From NCBI RefSeq assembly GCF_029633865.1, contig NC_079213.1, positions 109,974,582 to 110,038,581 of the forward strand: a stretch of DNA of 64,000 nucleotides, in the 5' to 3' direction. Both the position numbers and the translations under genes were made by a program. The notes under the pieces were generated by a model. It was not told where the DNA came from. It did not search any database and worked only from the letters and a program-made list of their open reading frames with translations. This document shows positions 359 through 59,541 of the stretch, piece after piece; position 1 is the stretch's first letter; every line of letters begins with the position of its first letter. The stretch comes from Lampris incognitus. Lineage: Eukaryota; Chordata; Actinopteri; Lampriformes; Lampridae.

Positions 359-3300
359 GTAAGGGATATTAAATATTTGAATTGATATAAATATCTGTAC
401 TCATATTTGTATTTGTATAACCAGATAGAGATGTAACCAGAGATTGTCATTAACAAGCCATGGCTTTTAGTGACCTAAAGGATTTTCTTGAGGCTGATTT
501 TAAGCCATAATTATCCCCGCGAGACTTAATTGTAAAAGTAAACACCATACCAGTGCCGTAATTTATTAACTTGTTGTGTGAACTACAAATACATACATAG
601 AAAAGTATGTGTAATGTGCACCATACTAAATACATTCTATTTCTTATGGATTTGCTGACAAGGAGATAGATGGAGAGTGTGTGTGAGAAAGAGAGAGAGA
701 GCGAGAGCGAGAGCGAGAGAGAGAGAGAGAGAGAGATAGATTGATAGATAGGTAGATGAAACTTGTAGCCACACTCTTGTTACCACACCCTGTACATTAA
801 AGTACAGGGTGCAAAAAAAGCTGTTTTTATTAGTTTGATTCATTGGATTTTTTTTTCTACTGCCCTTTTATGTCCATCTCTTTATTCTGACTTGTGTCTT
901 GCTAATACTGCTTCATATGTCTGTATCTTCTGTTTGTTTTGGGTTTTTTTTTTCTATTTTTGTTATGCGCATGCCCCACTTGGTCATTTATGAAAAGTTT
1001 TGCAGATTTTTTTTTTAATGTTTTTGGTAGCTTGTTGTTGTTGTTTTTTTTTTTTTTACATTGTGTAACAGTCTAATCATTTATTACATCTACCCTAGGT
1101 GAGAAGAAATGTGGCCAGCTTCCTGTGATTCCCCATGCTACCCTAGAAGATACTGCTAATGATGATTATAAAGAAGAGCAACACATCAAAATTATGTGTG
1201 ATAGAGATTACAAACTTAACACTCCTCACATAACTTGTCAGGCAGGAAAATGGAACATGGGCCAGTTACTTCCTGATGAGATCTGTACACGTGAGGCATC
1301 CCCTATATGTCATTCTTAATTCTTGATACCTTAAAGCATGTGGCAACAGCGCTTGATATTATATACCTTTTGTGTCTCTTGCAGCAAATCACACGCCCTG
1401 TGGGCCCCCACCAAAGGTTGACAATGCAGTTATTACAACTGCATATCAGACGGAATACTTGTCTAGAACTATAGTCACCTACCAATGTCGAGATGATTAC
1501 GTTATGGGGCCCAAGGACTCGTTGACATGCAAAAATGGAGATTGGGGAGAAAATGTCATCCATTGTGACAGTAAGTATGCTGTCTCCTAATGCAGAGATC
1601 TTCAACAGCAGGTCCGCGACCCATAGGGGTTCCTCAGTGTTACTGCAGGGGGTCCGCCGAATTATTTGATCCCAAACTTTTTTCTTCCAAAAATATGTCC
1701 GAAAATACACATGAACATAAATACAACCTATACTAAGCAAAGGTAAATCTTCCTATTCATTAAAAAATTACAACATTGAAGATACCCATGAATCCTCGTG
1801 CATGCCATATTTGCCAAATAGGTACGTATTTTTAGCCTAAGTATACGGCCATTCTTACGTTAATGTGATCGATAATGGATTGTAACTTCTCGACCACAAA
1901 CCACTGGTGAAAGTTCAGAGGATGAGGCTGACGCACCTGCTAACGGCCATGCTACAACTGCTGCCAAGAGCAAACGAGAGAAGACCCGAAAATATTCAGA
2001 GAATTATCTCGTTTGGATTTACCTTTAAAGAGACTGAGGGCATTGAATTACCAGTGTGTGTCATCTGCTCTGCCGTGCTGTCAAACGAAAGGATGAAGCC
2101 ATCAAAGCTGCAGCGTCACTTGGAGTCAACCCATTCTCACCTGAAAGAAAAACCAGTGAAATATTTTCAGGCCCATCTCAAATCTCTCAAAGGCCAACAG
2201 ACATTGATGAGAAAATCAGCTTAAGTTGGTCAGCTAGCTTCTAAAGCCTCCTATCAAGTTGCTCTTTGGATCACTCAGAACACTTATACAATTGCAGAGG
2301 ATTTAATATTGCCCGCAGCCAGTGATATGTGCGAAACAATGTTTGGGAATTATGAGCACATTAATAAACTGAAAAGCATTCCGATGACATGACATCTGAT
2401 GTGAGGGTGCAATTAGTAGAAAAACTGAGGTTGGCAGAAATATATGAATCTGTCAATAATTATTATTTTAATGGCTTAGCATTGTATACACAATTACAAA
2501 ATACTTTTAAACATGGCATGATAGGCTGCTACACATTATTGTTGGCACAGTTTAATAAGAAACACTATCTACTCATATATTTTCATAATGTGTGTGTGTG
2601 TGTGTTAGCGTAGATAGCGGGACCAAAACTAAAGCACTTATGATCCTAATTCTTTTGGAGGTGGTAGGTATTGTCTCAGAGAGTAAGGGGAAAATCTCAG
2701 AAAATTAAAATTATTCATAATTATGCATTTTTCTAAAAATGGCTAAAAAACAACTTTTCTCGGCATTTCAGATGATTCTGAGCATCTTTGATTTTTTCAC
2801 CTATATAAAAAAAAATTTCTGGGACTTAGAAATGTTTTGGCATTATGCAAAATATGTGCATTTTTGCAAAAATTCACTTATGATCCTAATTTTTTTTTTG
2901 GAGGTAGTAGGTATTGTTCCAGAGAGGACCAGAAAAATAGCAGAAAATTAAAATAATTATGCAAAATATGCATTTTCTAAAAATGGCTAAAAAAACACTT
3001 TTCTCGGCATTTCAGGTGATTCTGAGCATTTGGGGGGAAGGAGTTGGAGTGGGGGGGGGGTTTAGGGGCAGGGGGAAGACGGTTAGCTGGCAGGATGAAG
3101 AGGAGGGAGATTTAGACGGGTGGCTAACCAAACCGCTACATTGTAGCGGGGTTCTTCCTAGTTTTATACGATATTGTAGCGAATTCGGGGAGCAACCACA
3201 GGAACTGCCGCGGCCGAGACGTGAGCCCGTATCGCCCGCCCCGCAGGAGACATCGCTAACCGCTCGACTAAAGGGTCAGACCCGTCGGCTAGCGGCAAAC

Positions 3301-6112
3301 GTGTCTACTTATCCATGCACCTTACACTATGTAATGGGGGAGGGGAGGGGGGGGGTCCCTCCGCCGTGTCTCCTGGCCAGAAAACCACTGAAGACCTCTG
3401 TCCTAATGCATTTCACACCAAGTACTGTGACACCTACGTCTTAAAAATTGAGAATTTTTTCTGTTTGCAGGCAAGGTGTCGGCATCCTTTGTAATACGTT
3501 AGACCAATTTTATGTCCTAGACCTAGACCCTTAGTCAGGAAAAGTTGATCAAAAAGATTTTTAGCAAGGAATCTACTGGTAATTTAATGCACGGAAATCT
3601 AATTGGAGTAGAACGGACATTCCCATTGAAATCAACATAGCAGGACGATCAGAGCAGCGGCCATTTTCATTTGGATCGCTGCCATTGCAAACAACCGTGA
3701 CCGCTGTAGCAGGCTAATGCGGGACTTCGACTATGACGTCGTGGCAATTCATACCCGAGCGTTCACCCATTACGTCCTTGCGACGTGCGCCTCCCCGAAA
3801 TCCTAGACGCACGTCGAGGCGACGTAGCCCAAGCGCAGCGGCGTTGGTCGTGATTGGTCCACTAACCACATCCGCTGGAGGCCGCCTTTCCGGTTTCTGC
3901 TCGAGCAACGCCGCCATTTTTAAACGTCTTCGAGTCCGCTGGTTGGTCTTGTAGCACATTGTGTTGAGTTGTGTTCAGCGTAGAGTTTTATCTTCTGCAC
4001 TTGTAGCACATTCTTTCATTCGGCTATCAAGTCGATAGCATCCAGGGTGTGGAATGAACAACTCGGAAGAGCGTCTGGCGGAGGAAGTTCGCAAGCACGC
4101 GAACCTGTGCGAGGTGTCCGCGAGAAATGATAAGGACCGTCAGATGTCCACCAACTCGTGGGGGCGGATCTCTCGGGGGGGAACACAGCGCCCTCTGCCG
4201 GTGTGGCGCTGAATTGCATCTCGACACGCAGAACCATCACGGTCTCATGACGGCGTCCAAGCAACGGCGTGGTTCTCACGTGGCCATTACGTGATTTCCA
4301 CGGACGACCATAAAACAAGCTCTACTTCCATATTTTGCGGCGAGTCGCGGCCTCGCTGAAGTGAGGTTTTGCGGTAATGACCAAAATGGGCAGTGGATTA
4401 GTACTGTAACGTGCATGGATAAGAAGACACGCTGGCCGCTGGCTGGCGGGTTTGACCCTTTAGTCTAGCGGTTAGCGATGCCTCCTGCGGTGCGGGCGAC
4501 ACGGGTTCGCGTCCCGGCCGCGGCACTTCCTGTGGTTGCGTTGTCCCCCGAATTCGCTACAGTACGAACATACGGCCCTGCTGACGTGTGTTGTCGCCAT
4601 GACAACTAACAACAATCGCTATCTTCTTTTTAACTACTCAAATGACCACGGCAAACAGTTCAACGTCCGTTCTACTCCAATTCAGTTTCTGTGGTTTAAT
4701 GCTAACAATTACTTTTCAGATTCATAAATCTCTAACAGAGTGGCGAGGATACCATCTTGAGGATATAAGTGGTCACATTAAACACACTTTGTTGGGTATT
4801 TTGCAGAATGCTGTCAAGACCCCAACGACGAAGCGCTGCCAACAACAGCGGATGTGGAGGAGGAGGGGTCTGTCACAACAGGGACAAATCCGGATTTAGT
4901 ACATGATGTGTCAACGACATCTAACAAGGAGGTTGAGGTAAGGATTAGATTATCTGGATGCAGCTAGTCCCCAATGCAACAGCCAAGCTACCATGCATCA
5001 TCTACTTCAGTGGTTCTCAACCTTTTTGGGGTCCTGGACCCCCCCTGCGTATTTTTGATCTACCCTGAGGACCCCTCCACCTGATCTTGGGGGGGGGGTT
5101 GCAATTTGATAGAAACAGTAGAAACTGCATTTTAAATTGCATTATAGCATTTATTCACTCTTTGGGGCAAAAATAAGAGCTTTCAGTTGTAACTTAGATA
5201 TAGTTAACAAAACAGAATTCTTATGCAGTAACTTTCAGATATATGTAACAAAACAGAATTCTTATGCAGTAACTTTCAGATATATGTAACAACAGAATGT
5301 TTATGCAGTAACTTTTGACAATGCAAACGGGAGCGAGATCTCTTATTAAAATACAATAAATTACACTTGTGAAACAGATGTAATTAGAGAAAAAAAGTCC
5401 TGTTACCCTTTATAGTTTAGGTAGATAGAGGTCTCAGTCACATTTGAGTAAAATAATCCTATTTCTATAAATGTCATAGGATCTTTTTTTAAAGATATTT
5501 TATTTTCACGGACCCCTTGCAATTACACCACGGACCACTAGGGGTCCGCGGACCCCCGGTTGAGAAACACTGATCTACTTAACGGGTAGATTGTGCTGAG
5601 GCATTCACATGCACCTAAATACTCCTAACACTATGATCTAATAAATGTTATCAAACGTGTCCAGTATTTCAATGCATGTTAATGCATATCTCTCTCTCTC
5701 CATCACAAGGCATTTATTCATTGTAATATGTATTCAGATTTTTAGATGTTTGGAATTTTGCATGACATAAAAAGGAATCAAAACAAATATAGTTTAATAC
5801 TACAACTCCAAGAACTGAGGAGGCTGCAGATGAAAGCCCTTTCTGTTATAGCATTTAGTTGGATATTATAACATGAATGGTAAACACAGGACTTTTTAGT
5901 TTTGTTTTGTTTTTTAACCGCTAGATTAACAATAATATAAGCACACTTTTTGTGTATGGCACCACTCCCACCAACCGCGGAAGGTTAATTAAGAATCCAT
6001 AGTTTCCTTGGTGACAGGTAGAGCTGTACAATGAGAAATAATATTGAGAAAGAGAAATTCTCCTCCAAATAAAATTGACTTTACTCCACAGCACTCAACC
6101 AGTGGACCATGA
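197..6112 (+). CDS. Factor H-like gene 1 (5' part outside window)
   Basis: Three consecutive CCP (sushi) exons, each starting and ending in phase 1, are followed by a probable acidic tail exon. Each CCP module has the expected four cysteines, the late Trp or Gly-Trp region and GT-AG borders. Such proteins are secreted or surface regulators that bind C3b or C3d; this is family knowledge and is not shown here for this gene. The signal exon and earlier CCPs lie before the window. Unlike genes 2 and 3 downstream, no CCP20-type last module is present, so the C-terminal end differs. Introns hold a fossil hAT (1593-2475), two tRNA-LTR elements and a hAT MITE. The exact CFH-family member is not determined. 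Confidence 0.75.
689..735 (+). repeat. (GA)n microsatellite
   Basis: Almost pure GA/GAGC run inside intron sequence. A short hairpin with 10-bp arms (786-795 and 802-811) follows it. The rest of 359-1098 is T-rich intron with nothing else recognisable. Confidence 0.9.
1099..1290 (+). CDS. CCP exon, gene 1
   Basis: Acceptor ccctag before 1099, donor gtgagg at 1291; 192 nt, phase 1 at both ends. Reads EKKCGQLPVIPHATLED, then IKIMCDRDY, ITCQAGKWN and ends PDEICT, a full four-cysteine CCP. Confidence 0.88.
1385..1570 (+). CDS. CCP exon, gene 1
   Basis: Acceptor cttgcag ends at 1384, donor gtaagt at 1571; 186 nt, phase 1. Reads HTPCGPPPKVDNAV, then VTYQCRDDY, LTCKNGDWG and ends VIHCD. This is a canonical CCP of the CFH type. 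Confidence 0.9.
1593..2475 (+). mobile_element. Fossil hAT transposon, ZBED5/Buster-like
   Basis: The left end at 1593 (cagagatcttcaac, then ggtccgcg) looks like a hAT terminus. The frame at 1907-2224 contains a BED zinc finger pattern (LPVCVICSAVLSNE, then LQRHLESTH) and the segment resembling ZBED5-type proteins. After a stop, the next stretch reads KASYQVALWI and LILPAASDMCETM, typical of the following domain. The catalytic core and right end are gone. It sits only 23 bp after a splice donor of gene 1. This is a decayed copy. Confidence 0.75.
2632..3033 (+). repeat. Two-copy direct repeat, about 155 bp units
   Basis: The block beginning cacttatgatcctaatt and ending with tctcggcatttcag.tgattctgagcat occurs at about 2635-2790 and again at 2875-3030, spaced about 240 bp. 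The copies differ at several sites. Origin unknown; intronic. Confidence 0.75.
3175..3326 (-). mobile_element. Solo LTR of tRNA-bearing miniature LTR element, subfamily II
   Basis: Read on the minus strand it starts TGTAAGGTGCAT and ends CGCTACA, about 152 bp. Inside is the shared tRNA-like stretch: A-box-like TAGTCGAGCGG, then the B-box-region block and a GC-rich tail. It aligns over its whole length with the solo LTR at 4405-4561. I see no clear target duplication. A fossil. Confidence 0.75.
3460..4053. other. CpG-rich stretch with promoter-like motifs, no gene seen
   Basis: From about 3640 the sequence becomes CpG-rich. It holds two GCCATTTT-type YY1-like motifs (near 3660 and 3912) and CRE-like tgacgtcg at 3734. 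It lies just upstream of a short MADF-like coding stretch (4054). It could be a decayed promoter or 5' end of a mobile element. No intact gene is supported here. Confidence 0.4.
4054..4212 (+). pseudogene. MADF-domain-like coding fragment
   Basis: From ATG at 4054 the frame reads MNNSEERLAEEVRKHANLC, then EVSARNDKDRQMSTNSWGRIS, and ends at a stop near 4210. The pattern (R/E-rich helix, HxxLxxV, YKD-like NDKD, W-x-x-I) resembles the start of MADF domains, as found in Adf-1-like proteins and in the second protein of PIF/Harbinger transposons. Only about half a domain is present before the frame degenerates to a G-rich run. Likely a relic; family call tentative. Confidence 0.45.
4405..4561 (+). 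mobile_element. Solo LTR of tRNA-bearing miniature LTR element, subfamily II, with 4-bp target duplication
   Basis: Starts TGTAACGTGCATGG and ends AATTCGCTACA (157 bp), flanked by gtac on both sides (4401-4404 and 4562-4565). The middle holds a tRNA-like stretch: A-box-like segment TAGTCTAGCGG and B-box-like GGTTCGCGTCC about 45 bp later. TG...CA ends with a 4-bp duplication are the mark of LTR-element integration followed by LTR-LTR recombination. A fossil. Confidence 0.85.
4807..4937 (+). CDS. Probable acidic tail exon, gene 1
   Basis: Acceptor ttttgcag before 4807, donor gtaagg at 4938. Only one frame is open, and it is the phase-1 frame required by the preceding CCP exon. It reads CCQDPNDEALPTTADVEEEG, then SVTTGTNPDLVHD and ends SNKEVE. 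There is no CCP pattern. It is acidic and Thr/Ser-rich, as in a stalk or C-terminal tail. It ends in phase 0. The adjoining fit of phase and splice sites supports it, but no homolog is recognised. Confidence 0.5.
5008..5572 (+). mobile_element. hAT MITE family A, copy 1
   Basis: Terminal inverted repeats CAGTGGTTCTCAACC and GGTTGAGAAACACTG, extended by the inner ggtccgcggaccccc box. Perfect 8-bp target duplication atctactt (5000-5007, 5573-5580). Non-coding. The centre holds about three tandem copies of an approximately 40-bp unit (taactttcagatatatgtaa). Mobilised by a hAT transposase in trans, by family knowledge. Confidence 0.93.
5581..6091. other. Intron, nothing recognised
   Basis: AT-rich sequence between MITE copy 1 and the proposed last exon of gene 1. 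No gene or known repeat seen. Confidence 0.5.
6092..6112 (+). CDS. Possible last coding exon, gene 1
   Basis: A good acceptor (actttactccacag) lies at 6078-6091. In the phase 0 left by the previous exon it reads HSTSGP and a stop (TGA 6110-6112). Poly(A) signals AATAAA follow at 6142 and 6157. An alternative acceptor at about 6018 would give VELYNEK and a stop. The choice is uncertain. Confidence 0.35.
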   Translation, partial: HSTSGP

Positions 6113-12793: not shown

Positions 12794-13058
12794 TGTAGCA
12801 AATTCAGGGGGCAGTCGGAATCCAACGCAGCCGGGACGCTAACCCTGGTAGCCCGCACCATGGGCAACTGCGCCAACCAGTCTACTAAAGGGTCCGACCT
12901 GTTAGCCAAGGGCTAGCGAGTCTAGTCATTCGTGGTCGTTACACTACCCCCCTCCATTGGGAAGTGCGTCCCCGCGCTTCAGCATATCAGCGCCCTCACG
13001 CCTCTGGGTGCATGCGCTTTTGATGACCTCACGGTCTCGCCATCCCACTTCTGACACT
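12794..13058 (-). mobile_element. tRNA-bearing miniature LTR element, LTR plus internal part
   Basis: On the minus strand: primer-site-like TGTCAGAAGTGGGAT (13058-13044), an internal part of about 100 bp, a purine run GGAGGGGGG, then an LTR from TGTAACGACC (12943) to TTTGCTACA (12794), 150 bp. The second LTR is missing; an RTE LINE tail abuts at about 13061. This copy is more diverged than the other subfamily II copies. A fossil. Confidence 0.8.
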
Positions 13059-15248: not shown

Positions 15249-15405
15249 TGTAACACGCATGCATAAATAGACTCACCAGCCCTTGGCTAACGGGTCAGAC
15301 CCTTTAGTCGACTGGTTAACGTTGTCGCCTGTGGTGCGGGAGATCCGGGTTCGCGTCACGGCTGCGGCAGTTCCCGGACTTGCCCCCCTGAATTTGGCCG
15401 TCCAA
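15249..15405 (+). mobile_element. Solo LTR-like copy of tRNA-bearing miniature LTR element, subfamily II
   Basis: Starts TGTAACACGCATGCATAA and contains the shared tRNA-like core with GGTTCGCGTCA as B-box region. It is diverged from other copies, especially towards the right end. A fossil, probably older than the copy at 4405. Confidence 0.7.
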
Positions 15406-19198: not shown

Positions 19199-19424
19199 GG
19201 AAGAAGACTTTTTTTTACCATCTCAGTGGAGGTGAATCAATTGGTTTGGTGCAGGTTGGTGTAGTAGTTTACCTTGTTTGGTCAAAAATGTCAAAGTCTT
19301 TAAGACACAAACTACAGTATTTTTGAGAGAAAAAGGTGAGGTTTACCAGGCAGCTTCTTCCACAAAGCCATTGATAAGCATGTGATGTTTCCTTTTTTCA
19401 TATTTTCATCCTTTAGCATGTTAG

Positions 19425-19678
19425 TGTTAACATGTTGTTATCTCTATGCATCCCTATTTAGTTAATGTAATGGAGGACAGCTCCCCTTCTGGTCAGGTTA
19501 TGCATGTGCAGTGTATTGCCCCTTCTAGGCGGGAGTCTCTTGTCATGCGCAGGTGTGGTGGTGCTGATGCGGAGAGCAAGTTGCTGGTCACTTGGTATCG
19601 TGAAGAAATGGAGTGAATAAAGTCGGTTTCACTGAAGATAAACGTCGTGTTTATTCAGAACAAGTTTAGTAGTCAACA
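19425..19678 (+). repeat. Copia 5' LTR
   Basis: 254 bp, TG...CA. Contains gaataaagtcgg, a probable poly(A) signal region. Confidence 0.95.
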
Positions 19679-19705
19679 TTGGTAGCAGAGGATGGTTAGC
19701 AGAAA

Positions 19706-22700: not shown

Positions 22701-24007
22701 TAAATATTCAAGAGCTACAAAAGGATTCCCCTACATGTGCGACTGATTCACTTAGACTTATGTTATCAGTGATATGTCAAAACCAGTGGGAAGTGCATTC
22801 TATGGACATCAAATCGGCATTTTTACAGGGTATGGAGCTATCCAGGGACATTTATATCCGCCCCCCTACAGAAGCAGGCTGTGAACATGTTGTATGGAAA
22901 CTTAAGAAATGTGTTTATGGACTTGCAGACGCATCACTATATTGGTACAACAAAGTGAAGGAAATCATGCAGACTACTGGTGGTAGAGTGTCTCAGGTGG
23001 ATCCAGCAATATTTTATTGGTTGGATGAGCAATGTAAGGTCACTGGGGTGCTTGCATGTCATGTAGATGATTTTCTCTGGGCAGGCACATCAAACTTTTC
23101 ATCAAACGTAATCCCGCAACTGAAATCTGTGTTTAAGGTTGGTCGTGAGGAGCATGAAAAGTTTTCTTATGTAGGAATGGATTTTGTAACGGTAAACGGT
23201 GAGGTACAGGTACACCAACAAAGTTACATTGACAATCTGCAGCCTATACCCATTCAAGCAGGTCGGGCCACACAGAGAAGTGAGCCCCTTAATGACACTG
23301 AAAGAGAGCAGCTACGGTCAAAAATAGGACAAATCCTATGGGTTGCTAAACAAACAAGACCTGATGTTATGTTTGACTCATGTTGTTTGGCTTCTGATAT
23401 AAAAGGGGCAACAGTACAATCTATTCATGAGGCTAATAAGGTTATCCGTAAGCTTAAATCTGAAAAGGTAACACTCAGATTCCAACATCTGGGAAACACT
23501 GATGCTTTGAACTTGATAGTATTCAGTGATGCTTCGCTTGGGAACCTCCCTGATGGAGGTACACAGGGAGGTACTTTGATAACACTTATGGGAGAAAGAG
23601 GGAAGTTTTCCCCACTCAGCTGGCACTCTAAGAAAATCAGACGTGTGGTCCGCAGTACACTCGCAGGGGAAACTCTTGCTATGTCAGATGGAGTAGACAA
23701 TGCAATGTTTCTGGCCACACTATTTTCTGAACTAACTACTGGCAATGCTGAACTGAATGCTCCCTCCGTGCTCTGTGTGACTGATAACCACTCTCTGTAT
23801 GATGCTCTCAAGTCTACAAAGCAAGTCACAGAGAAAAGACTTAGGCTGGAAATCAGTAGCATTAAAGAACTCATACAAAGCAAGAAGATCAAGGAGGTGC
23901 GTTGGTCAGACACGAAAACTCAACTCGCTGACTGTCTCACAAAGAAAGGAGCATCGGCTCTTGTGCTCTTAAAGGCACTCTGTGAAGGACAATGGGACCT
24001 GGGTTAA
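19706..24007 (+). CDS. Copia gag-pol polyprotein frame
   Basis: One frame of 1433 codons in Copia order: Gag with zinc knuckle CAVCQSTFHWAKDC, an aspartic protease region (IIDTACTRT), integrase (HKQFGHAS, CDICQ, VDLHELE, then YSDNGREF), reverse transcriptase (MDIKSAFLQG, CHVDDF) and RNase H (FSDASLGN, LAGETLA). Integrase before reverse transcriptase defines Copia. Element gene, not a host gene. Confidence 0.95.
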   Translation: MASASSYKVPPKFDESRPYESWKNEVAMWKLVTELDKKKQALAVVLGLEGRARDIAMEIPAADLNTDGGMDVLIAKLDGMFLKEERDRAYDAYSYFDCIKKDNSVSMADYVIDFEQRYNRMKKYDMTLPDAVLAFKLLDTACLDEKNRQMALTACTDLTFAAMKSALKRIFGGKIQVDATNGIQVKDEVFYTEQRSRGRFKRTSNVVQQAGQESQTTQVGQQKPPLQGTNPLDRFGRRSKCAVCQSTFHWAKDCPHKNSEQVKLTEEPAKVEDTLFTKASLSESASEIFLTESLGTAIIDTACTRTICGEKWLENFVADLSQSQVNQIAQSGIPSSRPFRFGDGNIVHSSKILKLPAKIGQTKCQVETEVVKADIPLLLSKTSLKRAGTILDMENDSAVMFNQNIPLELTSSGHYCIDIRDKSTETKPIETEALTAPENSLNEDEVLTVTENMTANEKHKVLLKLHKQFGHASAERLQRLIHSSGNKDTECDTILQHIVQDCDICQRYSKTKPKPAVGLPLASTFNETVAVDLHELEPGVWYLHIIDQFTRFSAGSIVKTKKISEIVKSFLHTWIGIHSAPQRLYSDNGREFNNAEFRDMAENFNIETKTTAGYSPWSNGLLERHNQTPTDIILKVRRESGCDWETALDWALMAKNSMHNVHGYSPRQLVYGLNPNLPSVLVDKPPALEGTTMSARVGEHISALHAARKAFTEAECSERIRRALRKQLRATDEKYDMGDKVYYKRAECNEWKGPGIVIGQDGAVVFVRHGGILVRVHHSRLSKVNTRVNEEQMVQNENDAETVNDEQDTETGNDEQGINNVADDLASEQNRENELPESNVAQTEMAHKPNAHDNPVPSAGISLKTGQTVTYMNRGDNTLLRARVLGRAGKATGKYKTWYNMQHLENNGSDGQKVSVDISEVDNLHIETDREADVLITKDISFDAAKQEEIKNWHNNNVFEVAKDAGQKCISTRWVCSLKETPKGIVSKARLVARGFEEINIQELQKDSPTCATDSLRLMLSVICQNQWEVHSMDIKSAFLQGMELSRDIYIRPPTEAGCEHVVWKLKKCVYGLADASLYWYNKVKEIMQTTGGRVSQVDPAIFYWLDEQCKVTGVLACHVDDFLWAGTSNFSSNVIPQLKSVFKVGREEHEKFSYVGMDFVTVNGEVQVHQQSYIDNLQPIPIQAGRATQRSEPLNDTEREQLRSKIGQILWVAKQTRPDVMFDSCCLASDIKGATVQSIHEANKVIRKLKSEKVTLRFQHLGNTDALNLIVFSDASLGNLPDGGTQGGTLITLMGERGKFSPLSWHSKKIRRVVRSTLAGETLAMSDGVDNAMFLATLFSELTTGNAELNAPSVLCVTDNHSLYDALKSTKQVTEKRLRLEISSIKELIQSKKIKEVRWSDTKTQLADCLTKKGASALVLLKALCEGQWDLG

Positions 24008-24150
24008 AAGGGTGTTGGATGGACAATTGATTTTGTTCTCAAACGCTTCCATGACATGTTGATTTCTCTGGAAATGTATGTTCCATAATTCACGCTGTGA
24101 ATTTCATTTTTTTGTTTTCTGTTTATTTCTTTAAAAAAAGAGAATGACAT

Positions 24151-24404
24151 TGTTAACATGTTGTTATCTCTATGCATCCCTATTTAGTTAATGTAATGGA
24201 GGACAGCTCCCCTTCTGGTCAGGTTATGCATGTGCAGTGTATTGCCCCTTCTAGGCGGGAGTCTCTTGTCATGCGCAGTTGTGGTGGTGCTGATGCGGAG
24301 AGCAAGTTGCTGGTCGCTTGGTATCGTGAAGAAATGGAGTGAATAAAGTCGGTTTCACTGAAGATAAACGCCGTGTTTATTCAGAACAAGTTTAGTAGTC
24401 AACA
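24151..24404 (+). repeat. Copia 3' LTR
   Basis: Near-identical to the 5' LTR, followed by the target duplication gttag (24405-24409). Confidence 0.95.
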
Positions 24405-31371: not shown

Positions 31372-31506
31372 TGTAAACTACTAATAACACACGTTAGCCC
31401 CTAGCTAACAGGTCTGACCCTTTAGCCGAGCGGTTAGTGATGTCGCCTTGAGGTGCAGTACACCCCGTATCGAATCCCGCACCGGGCAACAAAATAACCG
31501 GTTACA
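31372..31506 (+). mobile_element. Solo LTR of tRNA-bearing miniature LTR element, subfamily I, 4-bp duplication
   Basis: TGTAAACTACTAATAA...ACCGGTTACA, 135 bp, flanked by aaag (31368-31371 and 31507-31510). Inside: A-box TAGCCGAGCGG, which fits the TRGYNNARNGG consensus, and B-box-like TATCGAATCCC about 45 bp later. A fossil solo LTR. Confidence 0.87.
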
Positions 31507-31941: not shown

Positions 31942-32213
31942 TGTAAACTACTAATAAGACCCACTGGCCGATCGACCGTAGGATCCGACCCTTTAGCCGA
32001 GCGGTTAGCGATGTCGCCTTGTGGTGCAGTACACCCCGCATCGAATCCCGCACCGGGCAAGAAAACAATCGGTGGCAGCGGTGGGATCCGGAAGTGTGCA
32101 GATCCTCAGAAGTCTCTTCGGAGCGCGGGGGGAAAAAAGCGCGAGGGCGCGTTTCCGGGAGAGGGTGACGACTGGAAACTACTAATAAAGACCCACTGGT
32201 CGATCGACTAGAG

Positions 32214-32781
32214 CAGTGGGTCTCAACCTTTTTGGGGTCCTGGACCCCCTGCGTATTTTTGATCTACCCTGAGGACCCCTCCACCTGATCTTGGGGGAGG
32301 GGGGGTTGCAATTTGATAGAAACAGTAGAAACTGCATTTTAAATTGCATTATAGCATTTATTCACTCTTTGGGGCAAAAATAAGAGCTTTCAGTTGTAAC
32401 TTAGATATAGTTAACAAAACAGAATATGTATTCAGTAACTTTCAGATATATGTAACAACACAGAATATGTATTCAGTAACTTTCAGATATATGTAACAAC
32501 AGAATTTTTATGCAGTAACTTTTAACAATGCAAACGGGAGCGAGATCTCTTATTAAAATACAATAAATTACACTTGTGAAACAGATGTAATTAGAGAAAA
32601 AAGTCCTGTTACCCTTTATAGTTTAGGTTGATAAAGGTCTCAGTCACATTTGAGAAAAAAACAATCCTATTTCTATAAATGTCATAGGATCTTTTTTTTA
32701 AAGCTATTTTATTTTCACGGACCCCTTGCAATTACACCACTGACCAATAGGGGTCCGCGGACCCCCGGTTGAGAAACACTG
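32214..32781 (+). mobile_element. hAT MITE family A, copy 4, inside an LTR
   Basis: CAGTGGGTCTCAACC...GGTTGAGAAACACTG; target duplication gactagag / gactagac. Three central units. Inserted in the second LTR of the miniature-element array. Confidence 0.93.
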
Positions 32782-33004
32782 GACTAGACGGTCTGACCCT
32801 TTAATCGAGCGGTTAGTGATGTCGCCTTGTGGTGCAGTACACTTCGTATCGAATCCCGCTCCGGGCGAGAAAATAGCTCGGTTACATTGGTGGCAGCGGT
32901 GGGATCCGGAAGCGTGCAGATCCTCATAAGTCTCTTCGGAGCGCGGGAATAAGAGGGTGACGACTGTAAACTACTAATAAGACCCACTGGCCGATCGACT
33001 AGAG

Positions 33005-33248
33005 CAGTGTTGCCCAACCCAGTCCTCAAGGAACCCCTATCCTGCAGATTTTCAGTGTAACCCTGCATAGGTAGCCCCGCTTGTACTTACTCGACCAATC
33101 ATCTCACAGCACTTAATTATGCAAGGTGTACAACGTCTGACATAATTCAATGCTGATTGGTTGAATAACTACAAACAGGTACCTATTCAGGGTTGCAAAG
33201 AAAATCTGCAGGATAGGGGGTCCTTGAGGACTGGGTTGGGAAACACTG
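33005..33248 (+). mobile_element. hAT MITE family B, inside an LTR
   Basis: Long inverted ends CAGTGTTGCCCAACCCAGTC and its complement; 244 bp; perfect target duplication gactagag (32997-33004 and 33249-33256). It sits at the same LTR position as copy 4 of family A. A second family B copy is at 40218-40457. Confidence 0.95.
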
Positions 33249-33404
33249 GACTAGAGGGTCTGACCCTTTAGTCGAGCCGTTAGTGATGTCGCCTTGTGGT
33301 GCAGTACACGCCGTATCGAATCCCGCACCGGGCGAGAAAATAGCGCGGTTGCACCGCCATCAAATAGTTACATAAAACAACACAAAGTATCGACAGACCA
33401 AACG

Positions 33405-41200: not shown

Positions 41201-44200
41201 CATAAGACTGCCCACGACCATTTAACAGATCCAATCCTAGATCTTTTACCATAGCCTTGACACACCCTGCCAGGCTCTTGCCTGTGTGCTTCTCTATCGG
41301 CTGAAAACCCAAAAAGCGCTCAACCACCCTACCCTTCCTATTTACGAGTCGAAAAATGAAGGTCAGTTGATCTGGTGTCGAGTCAGCGATAACAGAGAAA
41401 TATTTGGCATCTTTAATTTCTTTTGCTATCGTCTCTTTTACTTGCTGTCGCATTATTTCAATGAGTTCATTGCATATAGTGTAGGACAAATAGGATATGC
41501 TACTGCCTCTCCCTTTTTGTCCATGTGTCTGGATCTGCTCTTCCAGGAAAGGATCGTATTGGGAAATTAACTCCAATATACCAAGAAAGTTTCCATTATA
41601 TGCTGATCCCAGCAACTCGTCGTCGCCCCTAAAAGCCTAATTTGTCTCACTTTTAGAATTTTCAAGCACTTAAGACCAAATTCTCACTTTGAGCGGCTTT
41701 ATACATATGGGCCCTGAGCTCTCAGAATTATAAGGTTACCTTTGCATCTCAAATCCCATTTCCAAATCTTCCAGGATCAACAGAAACTCTAGCTAGGGCC
41801 CCACATCAATAGAGCCTGTAGCTTGAGGCCTTGCATCAATAGAGCCTGTACCTTGGGGCCCTGCATCAACAGACACTATAGCTTAGGGCCCTACATCAAT
41901 AGAGACTGTAGCTTGGGGCCCTGCATCAATATAGAATGTAGCTTGGGCCCTGCATCAATATAGAATGTAGCTTGGGCCCTGCATCAACAAAGCCCGTAGC
42001 TTGGGGCCCTGCATCAACAGAGCCCGTAGCTTAGGGCCCTACATCAATAGAGACTGTAGCTTGCGTACCTACAGCAATATAGACCGTAGCTTGGGGCCCT
42101 GCATCAATATAGAATACAGCTTGGGCCCTGCATCAATAGAGCCTGTAGCTTGGGGCCCTGCATCAATATAGAATGCAGCTTGGGCCCTGCATCAATAGAG
42201 CCTGTAGCTTGGGGCCCTGCATCAATATAGAATGTAGCTTGGGCCCTGCATCAACAGAGCCTGTAGCTTGGGGCCCTGCATCAACAGAAACTATAGCTTA
42301 GGGCCCTACATCAATAGAGACTGTAGCTTGCGGACCTACAGCAATATAGACTGTAGCTTGGACCCCGTATCAATAGTGACTGTAGCTAGAGGCCCCGCAT
42401 CAATAGAGACTGTAGCTTGGACCCTTCATCAATATTGACTGTAGCTTCGACCCCGCATCAAAAGAGACTTTGTAGCTTGGGGCCCTGCATCAGTAGAGAC
42501 TGTAGCTTGGACCCTGCATCAATATTGACTGTAGCTTCGACCCCGCATCAATAGAGACTTTGTACCTTGGACCCCGCATCAACAGAAACTGTAGCTTGGA
42601 GCCCCGCATCAACAGAAACTGTAGCTTGGAGTCCCGCATCAATAGAGACTTTGTAGCTTGGGGCCCTGCATCAGTAGAGACTTTGTAGCTTGGGGCCCTG
42701 CATCAGTAGAGACTGTAGCTTGGGCCCTGTGATTGTGTATCCCTACTATACACAAACACAATACCCCTGACCTTTTGGGACCCCTTGTGGTCTGGGGCCT
42801 GGGGCACTGGCCCGGCATGCCTGGTCCGAAATCCAGCCTTGCCTCTGCAAAAGTCCATTTTTAAGCAGAACTTACGATTTCATGAACGCCGCCAATGAAA
42901 CAATTTTAGCCTCTCAGTTAAATCCTCCAGATCGCTTGCATAAATGGTCTGATGTCACACCGGCTCAGCACAGAGCGAGGATTGCAGAGCACTACGTCAC
43001 ATCACGTTCTGCCATCTTGTCTGAAACCCTTGTCTGAATTTGGACGTTCGTTTCTGCTTTTGTTTTTCTTTTTTCCCCCTCTGCGTTGAAGAGCGACACT
43101 GGCGGAGTTTCTCATCATTGAGCCTATGTGGTGGCACACATCGCCGTTCTAGCAGACCGCATGGCGCCACCTCGTGGCAGTAAAACAACAGTACAGAAAT
43201 ACTCAACTTTTTCAGAATTGGTCAAACATGCCTGAAACTTCTCTTACACGCACTCAATGTAACAAGCTACCAACCCATACATGTATCTTCATTCCATTTT
43301 TGATTCCTGTAAGTCTAATTATGACCAAATTATCATTTGAAACATGGACAATATACAGCTTTTATACAATAATATACAATCATACAGTGACAGGTTTTAT
43401 AAAGCACAACTATTTCTAAAATCTCATGCTCAAATATTCTAGATAACATAGAATTCATGACTTTGCAGAAGAATTCCTACAGTCTTCAAATCTCTGTTCT
43501 TTAAGTGTTTAGGTGTGTGTGTGGGGGGGGGGGGTATAAGCCATCTGGAGATTTTTTTTAACCGTATTCAAACATGCTCGATTTAGTACGAAACAAAAAA
43601 TATCTATAAACTACTGGCCAACCACTCGTCTCCCAAATCTGTGTCTGTCCTTTTAAAGTTGTTCTGCACTTTCATCTGGGCCTTCCTTCCCAATAGCATG
43701 ATCTACCCTTCATCCTAATGAGCAAAGATCATCTTAGCCAAACTTCGTGTTTGTTTTAAGTTTATTTTTAACCTTAATCCACACAGAGAAGGTTTGCTGA
43801 GGCCGTTCACTCTTTTTCGGCAGTGCGTTGCCTCACACTTATCTCTGTGTCAGTGTGGATGGGCATGTCCCAGAGGATGGTGACGTCATTGTTCTCAGTG
43901 ACTTTTATTAATAATTATTATTAGTTATAATTATTATATTGTTAACATAATGATGATAATAATAATAATTATTATTATTATTGTGGTTATTGTTGTTGTT
44001 TGCCCTCTGGATCTTTTACTTTTTTAGTTACACGGTAAACTTGAGTGTAAATATCGCTGACACTGTAACAACATAAACCATTAAGTTCCATAAACTGCAA
44101 TACTTTATTGTGTTAATATATCAAACAAACTTGTATCCATACGTGAAACAGGCAAGTGTTCATCATCAAAACAAGAACACACCAGGAGAATAATCAACAT

Positions 44201-47200
44201 GTCCCCAAGCAGACAACTAAGAAAAGGCTGCTTTCAGTGCCAGAACTGACTATTTCTTCAAGTAACACGTGGGGTGGAATGCTTAGAAAACTCACAGTGG
44301 ACTGCTTGATTTCCCAAAATGTGACAATAAATCCATCTCTTTGAAATTCCTGTCTCAGTCATTTTGGGAGGAGGCTGATCTGTGACCACCCTGTCATGAC
44401 CAGCAGAGCCTTTCCTTCTCCCTGTTTGTGCTGTGATTTAACAACTTTCAAGACACGCAGCGGTTGCGCAATGATCTGCATTCATTGTGGAGCAATTTGT
44501 GCTTCAATATTCTAACACAATGTGTCACGTGTGACTGCCGGGCTGTGCAATGTTGTGTAACTGCCAAGGAAACTTCAGTGGTATTGTTTTTCGAGGCTGC
44601 GCCCTAAAGACCTGTCACCTAAATGTATATGAGCTATCACTAAGAAGCCTTTAAATTAACCTTTTTGCTTTTCCCTGTGTTTTTTAAGAACCCAAATATT
44701 GTGGACAGCCACCAAGAATTGCTAATGGACACAGTGAAGGCTTTTTCAGACATCAGTATGACGATGGCATGAGGGTGGAGTACGTTTGTTCGAGGGGCTA
44801 CGCCCTTGATGGTGAGGCTTACAAATCCTGCAACGCTGGCCAATGGACCGGAGAAGTCATTTGCCGCAGTAAGTAGTAGTTTTGCTTGCGTGTTTCCTGA
44901 TACTGAAAATGTGTGCAATGATTGCCAGTGATCGAAGTTCATCTCACTTTACTACAGGCAGTTGTGTTGCCTCACGCCTCAATAACACACTACATACACG
45001 TGTAAGCGGTTATTTTCTTGCCCGGTGCGGGATTCGATACGGGGTGTACTGCACCACAAGGCGACGTCACTAACCGCTCGGCTAAAGGGTCAGACCCGTT
45101 AGCTAGAGGCTAACGTGTCTTATTAGTAGTTTACAGTCGTCACCCTCTCCCGGAAGCGCGCCCTCGCGCTTTGTTCTTCCCGCGCTCCAAAGAGACTTCT
45201 GAGGATCTGCACACTTCCGGATCCCACCGCTGCCACCAATGTAACCGGTTATTTTCTTGCCCGGTGCGGGATTCGATACGGGGTGTACTGCACCACAAGG
45301 CGACGTCACTAATCGCTCGGCTAAAGGGTCAGACCCGATAGCTAGGGGCTAACGTGTCTTATTAGTAGTTTACAGTGGTGCGCCGATAATATTGTGCCTT
45401 TACTTTACTGAATTTGTTGAAATTGCACGAGTGACTGGTGAGTACTACACCAACTATGGAAACTTGTTGCGTTTGTTTGCACGTGCGCGCGCGTGTGTGT
45501 GTCTGGCCGTGGCTAATCTCGCAATCTACTGGACCTTTCATCCTAAAAATTTGGTTGCAGTTATGCCTGTATGATGGAAATGGGTGCGGTGAATACATAT
45601 TTCAAGAAGAGGGAGGAACACAGGGTGACATAAGAGTGGAGGAAAGTGCACACAGGTGGACCATATCTTATGTAGAAGGCGCGATCTGGAAGGGATTGGG
45701 GACTACAAGGTGGGGACGGGAGAACACAGCTAGGCAGCATCGGGATTGTGGTCTTTAGGATGACTTTGGAGACCAAGAAGAAGATGAGAGAAAGACAGAG
45801 CCGAGAATCAAATGGTGGAAGTTGAAGAAGGAAAACTGTTGTGTGGAGTTCAGAGAGAAGTTAAGACAGGCACTGGGTGGTAGTGCAGAGTTGCTGGATG
45901 GCTGGGCAACCACTGCAGAAATAGTGAGGGAGACGGCTAGGAAGGTACTTGGTGTGTCATCAGGACAGAGGAAGGAAGACAAGGAGACTTGGTGGTGGAA
46001 TGAGGAAGTACAGCAAAGTACACAGAGGAAGAGGTTGTCAAAGAAGAAGTGGAATAGTCAGAGAGATGAAAAAAGTGGACAGGAGTACAAGCAGATGCAG
46101 CGTAAAGCGAAGAGCGAGATGGCGAAGGCAAAGGAAAAGGCGTATTGTGAGTTGTATGAGAGGTTAAGGGAGGAGAAAGGGACTCATACCGATTGGCTAA
46201 GCAGAGGGACTGAGCTGGGAAGGATGCGCAGCAAGTTAGGGCGATCGAGGATGGAGATGGAAATGTGCTGACAAGCGAGGGGTGTGTTGAGAAGGTGGAA
46301 GGAGTACTTTGAGGGGCTAATGAATGAAGAAAATGAGAGAGAGAAGGTTGGATGTGGAGATAGTGAATCAGGAAGTGCAGTGGATTAGCAAGGAGGAAGT
46401 GAGGGCAGCTATGAAGAGTGGAAAGGCAGTTGGTCCAGATGACATACCTGTGGAGGCATGGAGATGTTTAGGAGAGATGGCAATTGAGTTTGTAACTAGA
46501 TTGTTTAACACCATCTTGGAAAGTGAGAGGATGCCTGAGGAGTGGAGAAGGAGCATACTGGTACCCATTTTCAAAATTAAGGGCGATGTGCAGAGCTGTA
46601 GCAACTACAGAGGTATAAAGTTGATCAGACACAGCATGAAGATTTGGGAAAGAGTAACAGAAGCTAGGTTAAGAGGAGAGGTGACGATTAGCGATCAGCA
46701 GTATGGTTTCATGCTAGGAAAGAGCACCACAGATGTGATGTTTGCTTTGAGAATGTTGATGGAGAAGTGTAGAGAGGTCAGAAGGAGGTACATTGTGTCT
46801 TTGTGGATTTAGAGAAAGCATACGACAGGGTGCCGAGAGAGGAGGTGTGGTATTGTATGAGGGAGTCGGGAGTTGCAGAGATGTAGGAGTGGTGCAGAAT
46901 ATGTAGTATGAGGGAAGTGTGACAGTGGTGAGGTGTGCGGTTGGAATGACAGATGGGTTCAAGGTGGAGGTGGGATTACATCAAGGATCGTATCCGAGCC
47001 CTTTCTTGTTTGCAATGGTGATGGACAGGTTGACGGAGCAGTTGAGCAGGCAGGAGTCTCAGTGGACTATGATGTTTGCAGATGACATTGTGATCTGTAA
47101 CGAGAATAGGGAGCAGGTTGAGGAGAGCCTGGAGAGGTGGAGGTATGCACTGGAGAGAAGGGGGATGAAAGTCAGTAGGAGCAAGACGGAATACATATGC

Positions 47201-57362: not shown

Positions 57363-57777
57363 ACTGTTTTTAAAAATGGCTGACATTTAAATAACAAGAA
57401 CGTCATTCAGTTAAAGAATGACGTGTGAAATGAGCGCCAGGTCCTGAAGTGTGTGTGTGTGTGTGTGTGTGTGTTTGAGCGAGGACTTAGTTTCAGTCAG
57501 TGCCATTCAGCAACCTCTCCTTTATACCAGCTCTTTGAAGTATTAAACGTGCCACTTTGAACGGGTGAAGGGACCCTAATAGTTAGAAGTCCTCCTTCAG
57601 CCAGAAGACCCCAGGTCACCACAGGCCCTGCGTTAAGACTCCGCACCCAAGTCAGTGGTGCTTATCTACAGTCAACACTGCTACACATGGGCTAGTTTTT
57701 CAAAGGTGATTGCCATCCATCCATCCGTTATCCAAACCACAGGAAGGAGAAAGTCGTAACACCAGCTTCCTTCAAAC
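57363..57777. other. Intergenic, microsatellite only
   Basis: (GT)n at 57450-57474; a short ccatccatccgttatccaaa phrase at 57716. No gene. Confidence 0.5.
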
Positions 57778-57778
57778 T

Positions 57779-58035
57779 CACCCTTTAGTCGAGCGGTTAG
57801 CGATGTCTCCTGCGGTGCGGGCGACACGGGTTCGCTTCCCGGCCGCGGCAGTTCCTGTGGTTGCCCCCTCGCCCCCGAATTTGCTACATTGGTGTCAGAA
57901 GTGGGATGAGGAGAAGACCGTAAGGCCATCGGAAGCGCATGCGCCCTGAGGCTTGAAGCTGATATGCTTAAGCCCCGAGGGAGGGGGGTAGTGTAACGTG
58001 CACGGATAAGAAGACACGCTGGCCGCTGGCTGGAT
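57779..58035 (+). mobile_element. Subfamily II miniature LTR element, partial, with primer site
   Basis: Right part of an LTR (57779-57888, with A-box TAGTCGAGCGG and GGTTCGCTTCC), then the internal part 57889-57991 beginning TTGGTGTCAGAAGTGGGAT. This matches the 3' end of tRNA-Leu(CAA). A purine tract gagggaggggggtag follows, then the first 44 bp of the next LTR (from 57992). It is joined directly to a subfamily I element. A fossil. Confidence 0.85.
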
Positions 58036-58410
58036 TGTAAACTACTAATAAGACACGTTAGCCCCCTAGCTAGCAGGTCTGACCCTTTAGCCGAGCGGTT
58101 AGTGACGTCGCCTGTGGTGCAGTACACCCCGTATCGAATCTCGCACCGGGCAAGAAAATAACCGCTTACATTGGTTCGCAGCGGTGGGATCCGGAAGTGC
58201 GCAGATCCTCAGAAGTCGCTTCGGAGCGCGGGAATCACAAAGTGCGAAGGCGCGCTTCCGGGGAGGGTGACGACTGTAAACTACTAATAACACACGTTAG
58301 CCCCCTAGCTTGCGGGTCTGACCCTTTAGCCGAGCTGTTAGTGACGTCGCCTTGTGGTGCAGTACACCCCGTATCGAATCCCGCACCGGGCAAGAAAATA
58401 ACCGCTTACA
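58036..58410 (+). mobile_element. Whole tRNA-bearing miniature LTR element, subfamily I
   Basis: LTR 58036-58170, internal part 58171-58274, LTR 58275-58410. Same parts as 45001-45374, with the leucine tRNA primer-site region after the first LTR. It is flanked on both sides by inverted fragments of the start of a subfamily II LTR. A fossil that looks structurally whole. Confidence 0.88.
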
Positions 58411-58450
58411 TTCCAGCGGCCAGCGTGTCTACTTATCCACGCGCGTTACA
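58411..58450 (-). mobile_element. Fragment of subfamily II LTR, inverted
   Basis: The minus strand reads TGTAACGCGCGTGGATAAGT...GGCCGCTGG, the first 40 bp of a subfamily II LTR, opposite in orientation to the one at 57992-58035. Confidence 0.85.
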
Positions 58451-58859
58451 CTACTTCACCAGCAGGTGTCACTAAAGACTCAGCATTAACGCATGCCTGT
58501 AAAAGATCCCTTATCGCGTGACGTCAAAGCTGCGTTGTAGACAAGGTGCGCGCGCAGAACGCGTCCGAGAAACAACGTGCGTGTACCCACGAAACTCACA
58601 GATGAACGCGGTATAACCCTTCAAGTTAAGCGGAGAGAAGTTGGAAACTTGAGAAAACGTAAATCTCAGAATATGTCGAAGGTCTAAGCAAGGAAGACAG
58701 AAAGCGCCATGGGTCGAAACTTACGCCAAGCGCTGGAGAACAACGTCCCGATCCCGAAGCTCAGCGGACAAGTGACGTCACGAAGCTGCCAAACGTCGGC
58801 TGGAGGGGTGTGACCGAATACCTCACAGAGAGTTAATTAAGACATACAAGTCTTTAGAG
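58451..58859. other. CpG-rich stretch, no gene seen
   Basis: Many CG and GCGC steps between 58500 and 58800; no supported frame. Confidence 0.45.
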
Positions 58860-59541
58860 CAGGGGTGGGCAATTTTATCCAGAAAGTGCCAGTGTGGGTG
58901 GGTGAAGGTTTTTGTTCCAACCAAGTGTAAACTACTAATAAGCAGGGGTTAAAGTGGGATTTGGTAAGTGGGGGATCACTGTATTAGAGAGGTGGGCAAA
59001 AGTGCGGGAAAGATAGGTAGCTAGCTAACGTTAGGCTAGCTGACCACTGGTCCAGTAGTCCCGACGTTAGCGTTGTTAGCTAATGATAGCTACCGGTAGC
59101 TAACGTTTGCTAGCTAGTTAGTTATTTGAATGAAAATATTGCATGGCCAGAACTAAGGTTGGACAAACATAACTAGCTAGCTACCGATAGTTAGCTTGCC
59201 TAGCAGCATTCAAACAACTAGCCAGCAACGTCAGCAACTAGCTAGCAACGTTACCGGATGGAAGATAGCTAGTTAGTGTAAACTACTAATAAGACAGGTT
59301 AGCCCCCTAGCTAGCGGGTCTGACCCTTTAGCCGAGCGGTTAGTGATGTCGCCTTGTGGTGCAGTACACCTCGTATCGAATCCCGCACCGGGCAAGAAAA
59401 TAACCGGTTACACAAGCAATTTACACACCTGTGTCTCCTAATCAAGTTCCTCAGCAAATGTTCTACTGGTTGATTAGTGGGACCAGGTGTGTAACTGCTT
59501 GATTGGAACAATAACCTTCACACACACTGGCCCTTTGTCGA
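58860..59541 (+). mobile_element. MITE-like repeat split by a miniature LTR element
   Basis: The left part (58860-58925) starts caggggtgggcaattttatc; the right part (59413-59541) holds inverted segments (ttgattgg.ac, gtgtgtaa/ttacacac) and ends near cacactggccc. The right end is eroded. The inserted element is at 58926-59412. Confidence 0.55.
58926..59412 (+). mobile_element. Chimeric subfamily I miniature LTR element carrying foreign DNA
   Basis: Begins with the first 17 bp of the LTR (TGTAAACTACTAATAAG) and ends with a whole LTR (59277-59412). Between them lies about 330 bp unrelated to other copies and rich in gctagctaacgtta-type motifs. caag flanks the whole unit (58922-58925 and 59413-59416). 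A fossil with an unusual interior. Confidence 0.8.

Follow-up and report, generated by a model that had tools for sequence, protein, structure and literature searches.

Two probable Helenus-type TRIM families with leucine tRNA primer sites and head-to-head copies in a fish genome

BLAST of the window (the whole 64-kb stretch of DNA that was analysed) revealed miniature LTR retrotransposons of two related families, A and B. Both are very likely Helenus-type TRIMs, i.e., non-autonomous elements whose LTRs contain degenerate A- and B-boxes of the tRNA type. Family A has LTRs of 135 bp and an internal part of 104 bp, and family B has LTRs of 157 bp and an internal part of 103 bp. The first-pass annotation had listed ten places as one group of about ten copies; repeats are present at all ten by BLAST of the window, but they split into the two families. 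One LTR of each family was compared with 10 block-shuffled windows, with 0 matches at E ≤ 1e-3. The features are as follows.

45001..45374, minus strand: family A copy with two LTRs (sequence, BLAST)
45222..45238, minus strand: primer site of the 45001 element (from the tRNA end as we take it to be, and the tRNA-Leu(AAG) gene at locus L016)
45136..45151, minus strand: purine-rich tract GGGAGAGGGTGACGAC, adjoining the 3' LTR
45312..45323, minus strand: A-box-like motif TAGCCGAGCGAT in the sense 5' LTR of the 45001 element
45269..45279, minus strand: B-box-like motif GTATCGAATCC in the same LTR
31372..31506, plus strand: family A solo LTR, duplication AAAG
31942..33353, plus strand: family A array, LTR-internal-LTR-internal-LTR
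58036..58410, plus strand: family A copy with two LTRs, between inverted B LTR starts
58926..59412, plus strand: family A solo LTR interrupted at 58943-59276 by an insert of 334 bp, outer duplication CAAG
4405..4561, plus strand: family B solo LTR, duplication GTAC
3175..3326, minus strand: family B solo LTR, ATAG/ATAT with one mismatch
12794..13057, minus strand: family B 3' LTR (12794-12943) and internal part, imperfect primer site
15249..15374, plus strand: family B LTR, first 126 positions matched
57777..58033, plus strand: family B copy with truncated 5' LTR, internal part 57889-57991 and positions 1-42 of the 3' LTR

The structural reading proposed earlier, a TRIM layout with tRNA-like boxes in the LTR, a purine tract and an analogy to plant Cassandra, is supported, and several details were revised. 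The unit at 45001-45374 is an element as annotated, but its sense strand is the minus strand, with the primer site near 45238. In sense order it consists of an LTR (45240-45374), the internal part (45136-45239) and a second LTR (45001-45135), 374 bp in total; the LTRs are identical at 131 of 135 positions, and the A-box-like motif of the other LTR is TAGCCGAGCGGT. The copy assigned to 58926 is indeed an A LTR, of which just the first 17 bp stand there and the remainder lies beyond the insert at 59277-59412. Position 57779 had been taken for an LTR start and proved to lie inside the 5'-truncated B LTR, in a copy with the primer site TGGTGTCAGAAGTGGG. All quoted box blocks were found, with differing counts: TAGCCGAGCGG five times, ATCGAATCCC eight times and GGTTCGCGTCC once (4504). 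Some copies are crossed by chance open reading frames.

Copies were sought with family A in the whole genome (1,481,484,146 bases, 537 contigs), which gave at least 43 matches; because 40 of 2366 candidates were scored, close copies are over-represented in this set, which gives no copy count. The 40 loci examined were the 45001 copy of the window (L002) and 39 others, of which 36 had two LTRs and four had three. An exact 4-bp duplication flanked 24 of these 40 close copies (21/36 with two LTRs, 3/4 with three), one mismatch was present in 8 and a larger difference in 8, including L056, which runs on into a further internal part. When left and right ends of different A copies were paired as a control, agreement was 32/1560 (2.1%). 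The two LTRs of a copy differed at a median of 3.0% of positions (0.7-5.9) in the two-LTR A copies. In family B, exact duplications were found in 9 of 23 loci (8/15 scored one-LTR and 1/8 two-LTR loci), a count given without a cross-pair control; most of these have the form NTAN, which raises chance agreement for B, while on the other hand the B boundaries are wrong in some loci (L140, L141, L145, L150). Within the window, exact duplications flank the copies at 31372, 4405 and 58926-59412, and none was seen at 45001, 58036 or the array, i.e., in 0 of 3 multi-LTR A copies. The impression from these three copies that multi-LTR elements lack duplications was rejected on the 40 genome copies. The genome copies found with the 45001 unit do have paired LTRs, a primer site and duplications of 4 bp, and the contrary outcome envisaged in the first-pass annotation, copies lacking all three, was not observed.

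A leucine tRNA primer site (PBS) following the LTR, as annotated, was found in both families. The references were a 16-nt end which we take to be that of tRNA-Leu(AAG/TAG) for A and, for B, a presumed tRNA-Leu(CAA) end. Against the former, two of the four internal parts of A in the window had 0 mismatches and the others 1 and 3; the 16-nt match was perfect in 28 of the 36 two-LTR genome copies. In B, the site at 57889 had 0 mismatches to the presumed Leu(CAA) end and the site at 12794 had 2. A tRNA family search of the same genome gave at least 57 matches (63 of 158,055 candidates scored). The 22-nt Leu(AAG) end occurs at seven genome loci, and a tRNA gene, Leu(AAG), was called at L016 only. 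Among eight loci read with the B-type end, ARAGORN called one Leu(CAG) gene, in L091 and the neighbouring L090, as well as tRNA-Val in L085 and tRNA-Thr in L087, each on the minus strand of its locus; no tRNA was called by ARAGORN in the remaining four. The putative primer of A matches Leu(AAG), and that of B matches the end common to Leu(CAG) and Leu(CAA).

The first-pass annotation knew of no such fish family. Helenus/TRIMp3 with fish families was, however, published in 2024; according to the portion of the paper available to us, Kojima defined Helenus by the tRNA-like sequence in TRIM LTRs and listed fish hosts (PMC10886601), so families A and B belong to a known kind. Helenus is also mentioned in a 2026 meeting report, in the portion available (PMC12859917). 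A hit to a named TRIM had been set down beforehand as counting against a new family; such a name exists for the kind, the comparison made here being with the published description in the available part of PMC10886601. The same part gives a length of 311-1263 bp, 4-bp duplications in animals, His, Leu or Lys primers in vertebrates and tandem arrays for zebrafish LTR-11_DR. The elements described here have two LTRs, or three in a few copies, a length of 374 bp, a PBS complementary to a host tRNA, a purine tract and the 4-bp duplications counted above. They resemble the fish families of Helenus such as LTR-11_DR in an LTR with A- and B-box-like motifs, TRIM size, a primer site for a tRNA 3' end, 4-bp duplications, tandem arrays and a proposed gypsy partner; this likeness is one of description, not of sequence. 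Cassandra of plants is a comparable TRIM whose LTR contains a promoter of the small-RNA type, and it forms tandem arrays (PMC7215508, portion available), but it carries 5S rRNA instead of a tRNA and has plant hosts; cmscan gave no match to 5S rRNA in the LTR. Pol III transcription has been reported for Cassandra (cited in the available part of PMC10886601), whereas A and B are known here as sequences.

It is highly improbable that a tRNA-derived SINE was misread as an LTR element. SINEs of this type share the spacing of A-box and B-box, and the many genome candidates would suit them, but they are not known to carry LTRs, a PBS or duplications of a fixed 4 bp; TG..CA LTR pairs, the PBS, the purine tract, 4-bp duplications and solo LTRs all speak for the TRIM reading.

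The LTRs of the two families align over their tRNA-like middle and differ on the 3' side. In a comparison of 7 A and 4 B copies (the truncated copy at 57777 excluded), identity in the tRNA-like stretch was 1182/1708 cells, against 907/1288 in the part upstream of it and 231/654 in the part downstream. The best conserved between-family block compared was GGGTCTGACCCTTTAG, upstream of and overlapping the A-box (410/448 cells). The boxes had been described as about 45 bp apart, which holds for A (44) and for B at 4405 (43); the best pair of the scan at 3175 was spaced by 73. Spacing in three SINE-like controls from the window was 44 in two and 65 in one, with a poor A-box. Among the A genome copies, the exact A-box string occurs in 63 of 72 LTRs and the exact B-block in 62 of 72. 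The A/B-box score was above shuffles at 31372 (2/400), 4405 (2/400) and 59277 (13/400) and not above them at 45001a (55/400) and 3175 (108/400).

Judged from the letters, the tRNA resemblance of the LTR is at motif level only. The Rfam tRNA covariance search with an A and a B LTR gave no match at E ≤ 10, a weak negative since the SINE-head control was missed as well. ARAGORN called 0 tRNAs in the window. Alignment of the LTR to SINE heads or to a tRNA-Thr from a viral contig was mostly at shuffle level (18 comparisons, best 10/500), folding of three LTRs was no better than that of shuffles, with no cloverleaf, and the LTR stretch had 0 matches in the viral contigs searched. TTTT is absent from 36 of 36 A elements; its absence was rejected as evidence for Pol III, composition alone giving 0.58-0.60 per element.

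The motifs, together with the proposal made for Helenus, suggest that A and B are transcribed by Pol III, which we consider fairly likely; for Helenus itself such transcription is proposed, not demonstrated, in the available part of PMC10886601. Less probably, and in our estimate rather unlikely, they are ordinary TRIMs transcribed by Pol II, with inherited or accidental A/B-box resemblance that is not used. Such elements would explain the failure of the covariance, alignment and folding tests and the low identity of the B-box block between families (167/308). They would not explain why the box order and the 43-44 bp spacing were kept in two otherwise diverging families, why the boxes are conserved across Helenus (PMC10886601, portion available), or why the boxes of A copies vary less than the stretch between them, though not less than the downstream part (non-CpG variation: A-box 0.009, B-box 0.012, between boxes 0.033, downstream 0.010). 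Under Pol III transcription, the RNA would begin immediately 5' of the A-box of the 5' LTR and extend through the element. Synthesis of cDNA would be primed by tRNA-Leu, and a Ty3/gypsy element that shares the leucine primer site would supply reverse transcriptase and integrase.

A candidate for such a partner was found among twelve loci that have the leucine PBS and the following sequence in common. Eight of them were translated: L126, L131 and L136 have a frame of 239 amino acids without a stop between the PBS and the end of the sequence retrieved, and the other five have shorter pieces of it. The frame was called gag-like from its position; one copy scanned against Pfam had no match at E ≤ 0.1. 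At the L126 site, which has the PBS TGGTGGCAGCGGTGGGATT, RVT_1 and RNase H domains lie 2.0-3.8 kb downstream, RNase H being split over two frames. From this distance, the gag-like frame and the RT/RNase H domains would belong to one element, which we take to be of the Ty3/gypsy type from its domain order. A Ty3/gypsy-like family with the identical leucine PBS fits the published view of gypsy elements as movers of animal Helenus (PMC10886601, portion available); the likeness observed between A and this element is in the PBS.

In addition, 24 genome sites were found where the complement of the leucine primer, terminal TGG included, extends over 25 nt or more, with 0 in the reversed-pattern control. 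Fourteen of the 24 were read (L020, L086, L087, L098, L116, L117 and L154-L161). An A or B LTR ends within 25 nt upstream in eight of these (L020, L086, L117, L154, L155, L156, L158, L161), and L157 and L087 have just partial or inverted LTR matches. No A or B LTR lies upstream of the extended complement in L098, L116, L159 and L160, so other elements may share the primer. Beyond TGG, the BLAST alignment to the tRNA extended over 44 nt in L098, 40 in L117, 45 in both L154 and L157, and 62 in L156. In L156, the 62-nt stretch aligning to the tRNA-Leu(CAG) complement comes after a B LTR and is itself followed by LTR sequence.

All 57 genome sites with TGGTGGCAGCGGTGGGATT were read and classed by eye: 20 ordinary A-type sites, 11 with an LTR, the PBS and an inverted LTR (head-to-head copies), 6 with a longer primer complement, 14 of the gag-type LTR element or its relatives, and 6 others. 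An inverted LTR is also located near the ordinary sites L092, L108 and L122, and L117 and L134 of the longer-complement class are head-to-head too. L019, L025, L026, L028, L104, L114, L152 and L153, and L161 for B, are joined at the B-box; by eye, the junction was placed there in L106 and L112 also, and it is elsewhere in L105, L132 and L133. L152 and L153 came from a B-box-junction pattern (7 matches, 5 among the 57; control 0). Because a T following GGGAT was a requirement of the first pattern and the B-box junction itself was built into the second, these counts do not prove a preference for the B-box.

Both outer ends were readable in 12 head-to-head copies and are U3 termini on both sides. 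The flanking duplication was exact in eight (L019 CAAC, L026 GTAG, L028 CTGT, L104 TTAG with a mutated end, L114 CAAG, L132 TTTC, L133 GTAG, L152 TGTG), had one mismatch in three (L117, L134, L161) and was absent in L025. The ends were picked by eye from motif candidates; the BLAST limits of the LTR agree in 7 of the 8 exact cases, and the end of L028 was set by the motif.

The A LTR and tRNA-Leu(AAG) have TCGAATCCC in common. We tentatively propose, with slightly less than even confidence, that the tRNA-like block of the LTR mimics the T-arm of the primer tRNA and that aberrant strand transfer yields palindromic inserts with intact 4-bp duplications. Plus-strand strong-stop DNA ending in the copied T-arm would pair with the B-box of a sense LTR and be extended by copying that LTR in reverse, giving a cDNA with U3 at both ends, which integrase would accept and insert as a palindrome. 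Rearrangement of integrated elements, as opposed to events during reverse transcription, appears improbable as the origin of the head-to-head copies. Such an origin would accommodate L025, the existence of nested copies, and LTR arms that differ by approximately 6-11% in the seven loci measured (L026 92/100, L133 117/129), above the median of ordinary LTR pairs examined, save for the outer arms of L019 (134/135). Against it stand the exact outer duplications in 8 of 12 readable copies, both ends of which are U3 termini, and the extra primer-tRNA letters at some junctions.

Neither primer read-through nor head-to-head copies are mentioned in the available part of PMC10886601. Three possible additions to what is published on Helenus are the sites where the tRNA-Leu primer complement exceeds 18 nt, the head-to-head copies, which are rare, and the presence in one genome of a Ty3/gypsy-like family whose leucine primer site is that of A. 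The present data add a Helenus-rich genome with two families tied to leucine tRNAs, partly via retained primer sequence. If integrase accepts two-U3 cDNAs, as the strand-transfer proposal requires, Helenus loci would record aberrant strand transfer as palindromic inserts. Counting head-to-head inserts would then show how often, in nature, reverse transcription has gone wrong and integrase has worked on a pair of U3 ends, and such genomes would allow a test of a role of the tRNA-like LTR block beyond transcription.

The 334-bp insert in the LTR at 58926-59412 is flanked by a 17-bp duplication, and the inverted arm of a surrounding repeat spans the joined flanks at 81%. A repeat with the fixed end CAGGGGTTAAAG lies directly after the first 17 bp of the A LTR in 58926-59293 and in L043, i.e., at that point in 2 of 8 loci read, and a target preference for this point is possible. 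The insert (58943-59276) was considered as the interior of a partner element, a reading that was rejected because the stretch is the terminal part of another repeat, whose insertion point is common to the window copy and L043.

Further repeats were observed in the window. At 57988-58454, a complete A element is enclosed by the opening 42 bp of B LTRs in inverted orientation, the two being 90% complementary. In the array at 31942-33353, two adjacent LTRs contain different hAT-like inserts at the identical LTR position, with 8-bp duplications GACTAGAG/GACTAGAG and GACTAGAG/GACTAGAC; we presume the hAT-like nature of the window inserts from their ends and the 8-bp duplications. Tandem repeats of 41 bp lie within four copies of one hAT-like element (5189, 9331, 27422, 32396). 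The internal part at 45136-45239 folds into a long hairpin with the arms CCGGAAGTG.../...CGCTTCCGG, of a stability not above that of shuffles. The window also contains a minisatellite of about 950 bp with a 30-bp unit (41776-42729), four stretches with Tc1-type transposase domains, and a Copia-type element (19415-24404) with a single stop-free frame of 1435 codons and 264-bp repeats that are 97% identical.
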